The position numbers were made by a program, and so were the translations under genes. The notes beneath the pieces are model-generated. The model did not search any database and was not told the origin of the DNA. It saw only the letters and a list, made by a program, of their open reading frames with translations. 64,000 nucleotides of DNA, from positions 84,950-148,949 of the forward strand of contig NZ_VUNG01000006.1 of the NCBI RefSeq assembly GCF_009695775.1, in the 5' to 3' direction. The DNA comes from Hallella mizrahii (lineage in GTDB: Bacteria; Bacteroidota; Bacteroidia; Bacteroidales; Bacteroidaceae). This document shows, piece by piece, positions 14,854 to 15,867 of the stretch (within the stretch, counting starts at the first letter, position 1; each line of letters opens with the position of its first letter).

Positions 14854-14900
14854 GAATATAACCGAATATCAAGAATACATATTTTCGATATTCGTTCATC
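14854..14900 (+). repeat. AT-rich palindromic repeat, left copy
   Basis: GAATATAACCGAATAT (14854-14869) and ATTTTCGATATTCGTTCATC (14881-14900) are separated by 11 bases. The same two blocks recur at 15652-15689. CGAATAT and ATATTCG inside the block can pair as a hairpin. It is followed by CCTGACTTCGTCA (14906-14918). Confidence 0.7.
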
Positions 14901-14957
14901 ATCGTCCTGACTTCGTCAATGCGTCACCCTGAATCGAGAATAAGTTTTTGGAAAATA

Positions 14958-15126
14958 GTCACGTACAGACTTTAGCTCCCCATGGAGCTATGGTGCTGAG
15001 GTGATGGGGGACAGCCTTACGAGCAAGCTCGTCGGCTGCCCCCCATCACCTCAGCACCACCCCCTACGGGGGACAAAGCCTGCCCGTGACGAAAATCGCT
15101 ATCGCGTAAAATTGCGCAGAGCGCAT
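14958..15126 (+). repeat. Multi-hairpin element 1 (conserved loop, variable stem)
   Basis: An outer stem (GTCACG 14958-14963 with CGTGAC 15085-15090, continued inward with interruptions) encloses three hairpins. H1 is 7 bp with loop CCAT (14973-14990). H2 is a 25-bp stem with one G-T type mismatch (14992-15016 with 15034-15058) and the 17-nt loop TTACGAGCAAGCTCGTC. H3 is CCCCC-TAC-GGGGG (15060-15072). A fourth hairpin, ATTGCGC-aga-GCGCAT, follows at 15111-15126. The same plan, inverted, is seen at 15291-15452. Folding as RNA or as a DNA cruciform is inference. Confidence 0.8.
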
Positions 15127-15290
15127 AAAATATTCAGCACCCCCTAAATCTGCTCACAATTATTTTAGAAAGCCCTGATGATATCGTCGTGGTAATAATA
15201 ACGCTCTATCTGTGCTTTGGGCCATGCATTCATGTAACGCGTTTTACTTTTACGTTTTACTTGCAAACGACTATTCAGCCGCTTTATTTT

Positions 15291-15452
15291 ATGCGCTTGC
15301 GCAATTTTATGCCTTGGCAATTTTCTTCATGTATAGGCTTTGACCCCGAAAGGGGTGAGTCTCAACCAGTGGGATAGCCGTCGAGCTTGCTCGTAAGGCT
15401 ATCCCGCTGGTTGAGACTCAGAGCTCCTCATGGAGCGTAAGCCTGTACATGA
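15291..15452 (-). repeat. Multi-hairpin element 2, inverted relative to element 1
   Basis: Read on the minus strand: outer stem TCATGTA...TACATGA (15452-15446 with 15333-15327) plus AAGCCT/AGGCTT; H1 GCTCC-ATGA-GGAGC (15436-15423); H2, a 23-bp stem with one wobble (15419-15397 with 15379-15357) and the loop TTACGAGCAAGCTCGAC; H3 CCCC-TTTC-GGGG (15355-15344); and H4 TTGCGC-AA-GCGCAT (15304-15291). The loop matches element 1 at 16 of 17 positions. The H2 stem has no sequence similarity to that of element 1 apart from AGCC/GGCT next to the loop. Confidence 0.8.
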
Positions 15453-15651
15453 TTTTCTTTTTTCTTTATCATCTGGAGATGCAAGGCAATATGAGTCAGG
15501 ACAAAGACATTGACTGTCTGCCGGGCTGTTAAGGAGGGATATCATTCCATCATTCGGAATTTCGTCACCATCAATTGCTGAATTAAGCTTATAACTAACT
15601 GATAATCAATGATGGCACTTCATCCAACCAAAGATGTGATGAAGTCAGGAT

Positions 15652-15689
15652 GAATATAACCGAATATGTATTTTCGATATTCGTTCATC
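15652..15689 (+). repeat. AT-rich palindromic repeat, right copy
   Basis: GAATATAACCGAATAT (15652-15667) and ATTTTCGATATTCGTTCATC (15670-15689) repeat the left copy, with 2 bases instead of 11 between the blocks. It is preceded by TGATGAAGTCAGG (15637-15649), the near reverse complement of the 13-mer beside the left copy. Confidence 0.7.
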
Positions 15690-15867
15690 TTCGTTATTCC
15701 ATCGAAGATGGAGCATTCAACTTCAAGACATTGCATCTTCGGCCAAGAACGCGAAGAATCACACCTTCCCGCTCTTTTCGCATGTACTTTCCTCTCATCT
15801 CACACAGAGTCATTCCCGTTTTTCCTCTCACACAATCGGAAATCCTCACAAAGAATAGGGATTTCCC

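Follow-up and report, generated by a model that had tools for sequence, protein, structure and literature searches.

Paired inverted cloverleaves as the ends of a repeated, probably mobile element bracketing a GxxExxY gene in Hallella mizrahii

Background

Inverted pairs of folded DNA that are recognised by their structure are found in REPINs (doublets of repetitive extragenic palindromes, REPs), in bacterial interspersed mosaic elements (BIMEs) and at the ends of IS200/IS605-type insertion sequences, all of which involve Y1 (HUH) enzymes and small hairpins and are not known to produce a target duplication. The inverted terminal repeats of adeno-associated virus (AAV), a parvovirus, are folded ends of about 125 nt with small inner hairpins, and are three-way, truly terminal and viral. 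Here we describe a short element in a 64,000-nt stretch of the Hallella mizrahii genome (contig NZ_VUNG01000006.1, positions 84,950 to 148,949; hereafter, the window), in which two cloverleaf-like structures face each other in inverted orientation and whose intact relatives carry a single gene of the GxxExxY family.

The element shares the arrangement of palindromic units in inverted pairs with REPINs and BIMEs, but differs from these and from the IS200/IS605 type in combining a gene for a predicted PD-(D/E)XK nuclease with four-way cloverleaves of 120-130 nt. In contrast to the AAV repeats, the cloverleaves are subterminal and lie in a bacterial chromosome. Short gene-less copies and terminal inverted repeats recall miniature inverted-repeat transposable elements (MITEs); unlike those of MITEs, the direct repeats beside one kind of these elements are not of fixed length. 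The candidate RNA Clostridiales-1 (RF01699) was listed from Clostridiales and the human gut (Weinberg 2010, PMC2864571). Its plan of a closing stem, a long hairpin with a GCUUGC loop and further hairpins appears similar to that of the element ends, but it is described in the accessible part of that source as a candidate RNA and not as element ends. The GxxExxY family is named after a motif, and the accessible parts of the literature found under its name or accessions give no role for it and describe no flanking cloverleaves. The arrangement is likewise undescribed in the accessible literature on the protein family, cloverleaf or cruciform elements, variable duplications, REPINs and Clostridiales-1, a body of text that includes few subscription journals.

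Two cloverleaves form the inverted ends of one element

The window's two cloverleaves mark the opposite, mirror-image ends of a single internally deleted element, one end being of type A and the other of type B (Table 1). A first-pass annotation, made from the letters of the window alone, had treated them as two separate elements at 14958-15126 (+) and 15291-15452 (-), a division overturned by the genome-wide pairing of such structures and by their terminal inverted repeats. Its positions hold, and both stretches are strongly folded (-102.3 kcal/mol, z -12.1, and -87.1 kcal/mol, z -11.3, respectively, with 0 of 200 shuffles equal in each case). The two copies match at 16 of 17 loop bases and have AGCC/GGCT in common, as had been noted, and their alignment of 283 columns has a mean column identity of 78%. 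In each, three hairpins, of which H2 is long and H1 and H3 are short, are enclosed by a closing stem within 126-133 nt. Two details need correction: the single wobble attributed to each long stem is actually an A.C mismatch on the strand read, with G.T only on the other strand, and the trailing TTGCGC/GCGCAT hairpin, which is indeed present, lies outside the closing stem and varies in tandem number in other copies. A small hairpin unit, AAATTGCGC..GCGCATAAAAT, varies in tandem number inside elements, between the paired cloverleaves (L037, L038, L040 and L044).

A search with the loop pattern (at most three mismatches) returned 41 places in the 3.92-Mb assembly versus one control match. Forty-nine copies were read in the stretches around loop matches, a procedure that more diverged copies elsewhere would escape. 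Four stem types occur among them (A, 14; B, 8; C, 19; D, 8), with 48 copies typed by stem and the remaining one, C12:92, being a C type cut by the contig end. No fewer than 42 copies make up 21 convergent pairs (eight A/B, eight C/D and five A/C), none of which is homotypic; every pair joins one member of {B, C} to one of {A, D}. The seven unpaired copies are C12:92, an internally deleted A copy (C76:57995) and five further C copies, of which some face a truncated partner. The long stems are unrelated between the two window copies, as the first-pass annotation had stated, but this does not extend to all copies: there are four types, and the D long stem resembles that of A. Thus, the long stems look as if they had drifted through paired changes rather than been drawn at random.

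It is common for C-type copies to be located close to a contig end, at a distance of about 1 kb or less (C12:92, C42:378, C62:258, C69:13966 and C76:869). The assembly may therefore break at these copies and lack longer or autonomous units.

The ends of A/B elements are inverted repeats of the form TCCTGACTTC(G/A)TCA, in which the A end starts with TCCTGACTTCGTCA and the B end, inverted, with TCCTGACTTCATCA; D/C pairs have other ends, GCACTGGATATTTYCCGTGG. Direct repeats adjoin both ends in seven of 12 units with A/B-type inverted ends (10, 16, 20, 34, 57/56 and 113/104 bp, and 52/43 bp in the window) and are absent from four, while the C62 unit has a 111-bp repeat that adjoins on the right side only. 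The 34-bp repeat of the C73 unit has exactly two occurrences in the genome. The 52/43-bp repeat of the window recurs elsewhere in the genome and was ruled out as a clean target duplication; its sequence, GAATATAACCGAATAT..TTCGATATTCGTTCATC, is also present at C61, C17, C46, C65:49267 and C21 and is probably another interspersed palindromic repeat. An empty-site search with the joined window flanks found no joined site. In the D/C shell, an 8-bp duplication is visible by eye in a few copies.

Two mini copies, C65:21029-21327 (L090) and C37:29304-29601 (L091), have the same inverted ends without whole cloverleaves. The sequence separating the H1 hairpin of one end from that of the other has been lost, so that a single hybrid hairpin is left, and L090 is flanked by the 57/56-bp direct repeats.

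Intact copies bracket a single nuclease-like gene

The longest A/B copies have spacings of 735, 735 and 756 bp and a gene inside. This gene, of 149 codons, is intact in C29 and C68 and has one stop in C76; a longer gene-bearing relative of the window element spans 1135 bp (C76:26784-27918). Gene-bearing intact copies are the two A/B copies of this genome and one locus, L099, in another Prevotella genome, and each has a single gene between the ends. Its presence between the cloverleaves of intact relatives had been missed in the first-pass annotation.

The C29 protein scores 91 bits against TIGR04256 (GxxExxY; cut-off 35) and the L099 protein 86.6 bits against PF13366 (PDDEXK_3; cut-off 22), so that the element gene belongs to the family over both cut-offs. 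The predicted active-site residues D83, E96, K98, Q110 and Y114 are invariant in 54 proteins. The predicted fold resembles PD-(D/E)XK nucleases, among structure matches that include many unrelated entries with comparable scores. The gene product is predicted to be a PD-(D/E)XK-type nuclease of the GxxExxY family. The ratio of nonsynonymous to synonymous substitution rates (dN/dS) is 0.12 between C29 and L099, and 0.75 between C29 and C68, two genes that differ little. No relative was found by sequence in the PDB, a PADLOC search gave no match, and none turned up in plasmids or phages at E 1e-15, or in IMG/VR when searched with close-relative patterns.

Related ends flank GxxExxY genes in other genomes

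Scanning genome contigs with the element protein identified eight loci. One of these, L099 from the uncultured Prevotella RUG753, is complete: it has inverted ends of the D/C kind, a cloverleaf, the gene (83% identity) and an inverted cloverleaf with yet other stems, and is flanked by an 8-bp duplication, GTATGAAT, recognised by eye.

The covariance-model search that the first-pass annotation had proposed was carried out with a model (R1) built from eight copies of this genome, including both window copies, whose own scores prove nothing. It returned further copies with compensated stems, rather than none or copies with uncompensated arms; outside the model, R1 scores 120 and 107 bits in L099 and 123 bits in genome G166. 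Under strict filters, R1 matches 4 of 120 same-genus genomes, one of them weakly. Matches were also obtained in 6 of 16 genomes, a non-random sample selected because they carry either weak TIGR04256 loci or relatives of the element protein; of the 33 distinct R1 places in this set, 6 have a TIGR04256 match no more than 500 bp away (hand count). TIGR04256 itself has matches in 65 of 100 sampled same-genus genomes. The same-genus genomes G166 and G002 contain many cloverleaf copies with stem sequences of their own and no intact gene, as if independently amplified.

For the wider family, 90 of 90 GxxExxY loci were found by tblastn, two duplicates were dropped, and 76 of the remaining 88 have at least 490 bp on each side; some loci are related by descent and hence not all are independent. 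An inverted repeat linking the 5' and 3' flanks (score >15) occurs at 63 of the 76 loci, whereas the same test finds it in 0 of 233 control stretches, of which 143 were drawn at random from the window and 90 came from nine other loci. A strict fold test, defined by a closing stem of at least 11 pairs with at most one mismatch and at least two hairpins inside, picked out the 5' flank at 25 and the 3' flank at 25 of the 88 loci (12 loci with both, 38 with either), versus 17 of 440 shuffles for each side. Most of the structures shown for 15 loci are strikingly uniform, spanning 119-133 nt (143 in one) and mostly containing three hairpins, the middle one being longest, with an apical tetraloop that is by eye CAAG or close to it. 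This plan is seen in loci that have little sequence in common (L139, L149, L150, L151, L156, L165, L167, L169 and L058), and R1 still matches L151, L149, L167 and L139 at 86 to 39 bits. The loop GAGCAAGCTC (at most one mismatch) is present in the expected orientation at 16 of 88 loci and in the other orientation at 5, versus 40 of 1760 shuffles. A null obtained by swapping flanks among loci (0 of 23 and 0 of 38 loci pass) was contaminated by related elements on the opposite strand, and shuffles and control stretches were used instead.

A general search found no direct repeats adjoining the computed boundary at 54 other GxxExxY loci. Long direct repeats do occur near the elements at L138 (G275) and L167 (G002), where boundaries are unsure, and these were kept out of the repeat list. 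At L121 and L126, palindromic repeats of the CACAGATTTCACAGATT type stand beside the GxxExxY gene and represent a different end type.

Stems covary, and mismatch counts favour folded DNA over RNA

The stems covary very strongly. In 45 aligned rows, 20 of which read places already included from the opposite strand and some of which come from copies in the model, 94.0% of cells are paired versus 75.6% in shuffles, and both partners vary in 49 of the 52 pairs, a level reached by 0 of 500 shuffles. When 25 places are read on one strand each, at least two Watson-Crick types occur in 48 of the 52 pair columns. Both-sided changes affect all 14 pairs of the closing stem and all six of H1. The proposal of the first-pass annotation that selection acts on structure and loop while the stem is free to vary holds, further copies with compensated stems being present in this and related genomes. 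Among its candidates, a mobile palindromic element agrees with these further copies, while a structured RNA is disfavoured.

If selection acted on an RNA from one strand, G.U would be expected to outnumber A.C, an excess not seen here. The cells of the 25 places comprise 1166 Watson-Crick pairs, 31 G.T, 29 A.C and 65 others. Divided by gene direction, eight upstream copies have 8 G.T and 7 A.C, and ten downstream copies 9 and 13; these counts are small, and seven places could not be assigned. When the folds of the two strands were compared, the opposite strand had more G.U (25 versus 50, 21 copies), whether the copies lay upstream or downstream, partly via extra pairs, and the count on the fixed structure was preferred. 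Because G.T and A.C are about equally rare and the ends are inverted to each other, the sequence evidence indirectly favours folded DNA, single-stranded or extruded, rather than RNA.

At curated cut-offs, Rfam identified two tRNAs and nothing else across the window, and weak microRNA matches, which fell on perfect hairpins, were discounted as being of a kind that any hairpin can give. The earlier view that no named family fits is therefore correct at these cut-offs, but Clostridiales-1, with its similar plan, matches a few copies below its cut-off of 48: a C copy and an L099 copy at 38.6 and 37.9 bits (E 2.6e-5 and 4e-5), and a further C copy at 34.5 bits. The sub-threshold places are L040 2389-2508 (the same as L063 1830-1949), L099 3546-3662 and L215. 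The two higher-scoring matches, with a long GCUUGC hairpin, lie on the strand opposite to the cloverleaf reading. In the alignments the long hairpin fits, as does the next hairpin in one, while the closing stem and last hairpin fit poorly. No RF01699 match exceeds the cut-off in 393 genomes of the order, in which the window's own genome is the sole one with sub-cut-off matches.

Table 1. Layout of the element in the window (position 1 is the first nucleotide of the window).
Feature	Position	Strand	Remarks
Whole element: inverted end, cloverleaf A, gene remnant, inverted cloverleaf B, inverted end	14905..15650		746 bp; deletion derivative; ends located by genome pattern search
Same element on contig C65			Inverted ends 99854-99867 (+) and 100586-100599 (-); window start = C65:84950
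Left direct repeat adjoining the element	14854..14905	+	52/43-bp pair
Left terminal inverted repeat	14905..14918	+	TCCTGACTTCGTCA; same motif opens A ends of other copies
Cloverleaf A	14958..15090	+	Closing stem GTCACG/CGTGAC + CAG.CTT/AAG.CTG; hairpins H1, H2, H3
A H1	14973..14990	+	Hairpin TAGCTCC/GGAGCTA
A H2	14991..15059	+	Long stem; loop TTACGAGCAAGCTCGTC; apical GAGC..GCTC; tetraloop CAAG; one A.C mismatch
A H3	15060..15072	+	Hairpin CCCCCTACGGGGG
Interior small hairpins	15096..15131	+	TCGC..GCG and TTGCGC..GCGCATAAAAT; latter type in tandem in other copies
GxxExxY gene remnant	15165..15233	-	First two codons joined to last 20 (22 residues + stop)
Cloverleaf B, inverted	15327..15452	-	Closing stem TCATGTA/TACATGA + CAGGCTT/AAAGCCT; H1-H3; long stem GAGTCTCAACCAGCGGGATAGCC with one C.A mismatch
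B outer segment	15453..15636		184 bp; conserved among B ends
Right terminal inverted repeat	15637..15650	-	Reverse complement TCCTGACTTCATCA
Right direct repeat	15652..15694	+	52/43-bp pair

Discussion

We favour, with a probability of roughly 0.6, the explanation that the window structures are the two inverted ends of an element that is repeated and likely mobile, present here as a deletion copy. In intact copies it carries a lone gene for a predicted GxxExxY nuclease, and its ends are predicted to fold as DNA four-way junctions, likely recognised by that nuclease through their shape. The observations behind this are the heterotypic inverted pairs, the bracketed gene, the low dN/dS between two genomes, the compensated stems, the strand symmetry of mismatches, and the terminal inverted and direct repeats. 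A lone nuclease that reads the ends as folded junctions would explain why structure is kept while letters change, why the ends are inverted with unlike stems and why the nuclease is the sole gene. End DNA would fold when single-stranded, as in a replication or transposition intermediate, and the element's own nuclease would bind or cut at the folded ends. Staggered cuts of variable spacing would then leave direct repeats of variable length. Recognition by shape and apical loop would allow stem letters to drift, and different stems at the two ends would keep each end folding on itself rather than annealing with the other. Short gene-less copies, such as that of the window, may have been moved in trans or may be relics.

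The same core sits in at least two different shells, TCCTGACTTCRTCA and GCACTGGATATTTYCCGTGG, and one of these has apparently fixed 8-bp duplications. These observations keep alive a MITE-like scenario, unlikely in our judgement, in which a classical transposase encoded elsewhere moves everything between the terminal inverted repeats and the cloverleaf-nuclease-cloverleaf core travels as a passenger, or is a selfish module in its own right that rides in different shells. The D/C shell of L099 with its duplication, the existence of A/C hybrids and the tiny copies on C65 and C37, which have the same ends without whole cloverleaves, would all suit it. Known transposases generate target duplications of fixed length, but the direct repeats of the A/B shell range from 10 to about 110 bp. 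Among the inverted-end matches listed there is no longer, gene-bearing unit that could be an autonomous parent with a transposase, in a fragmented assembly whose contigs frequently stop close to C-type copies.

It appears improbable that the cloverleaf is transcribed, as a non-coding RNA or as part of an untranslated region similar in kind to Clostridiales-1, and regulates or guides the nuclease. Both window copies do fold strongly as RNA, and the Clostridiales-1 matches have a similar plan; these matches, however, all lie below the cut-off. The mutual inversion of the ends means that a single strand or transcript presents just one of them in the same sense, and both upstream and downstream copies have about as few G.T as A.C cells. 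Clostridiales-1, an orphan RNA whose sub-threshold matches have the same long-hairpin loop, may be a relative of these DNA ends.

Correction of palindromes by template switching during replication, a known mutational process that copies one arm onto the other, could make stems perfect without selection, and the long stems are nearly perfect in most copies. This origin is very improbable, since the closing stem, whose arms are more than 100 nt apart, and H1 covary too, and the whole plan recurs in loci with little common sequence. Paired palindromes of the REPIN or BIME kind, which have a GTAG-type tag and are moved by a Y1 transposase (REP-associated tyrosine transposase, RAYT), would likewise be multicopy structured DNA arranged in short inverted pairs, but REPs are far smaller than these cloverleaves, and the pairs here bracket a PD-(D/E)XK gene and have terminal inverted and direct repeats, so that we give this origin hardly any credence.

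Beyond this locus, we raise tentatively, as a conjecture with the odds against it, that 'junction-ended' elements form a new mobile class common in Bacteroidales. Such elements would consist of a lone PD-(D/E)XK nuclease of the orphan GxxExxY family between two inverted DNA cloverleaves that mimic four-way junctions, and would move by recognition of junction shape and target cutting with a long variable stagger; Clostridiales-1 would then be their Firmicutes counterpart, mistaken for RNA.

The long and variable direct repeats do not suit the standard transposase classes, and the ends offer a clean natural case in which selection seems to keep DNA shape while the letters drift. Inverted repeats enclose most of the sampled GxxExxY copies, and a good share of the copies are enclosed by folded ends. 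Thus, this orphan protein family becomes a likely family of selfish elements with a testable substrate.
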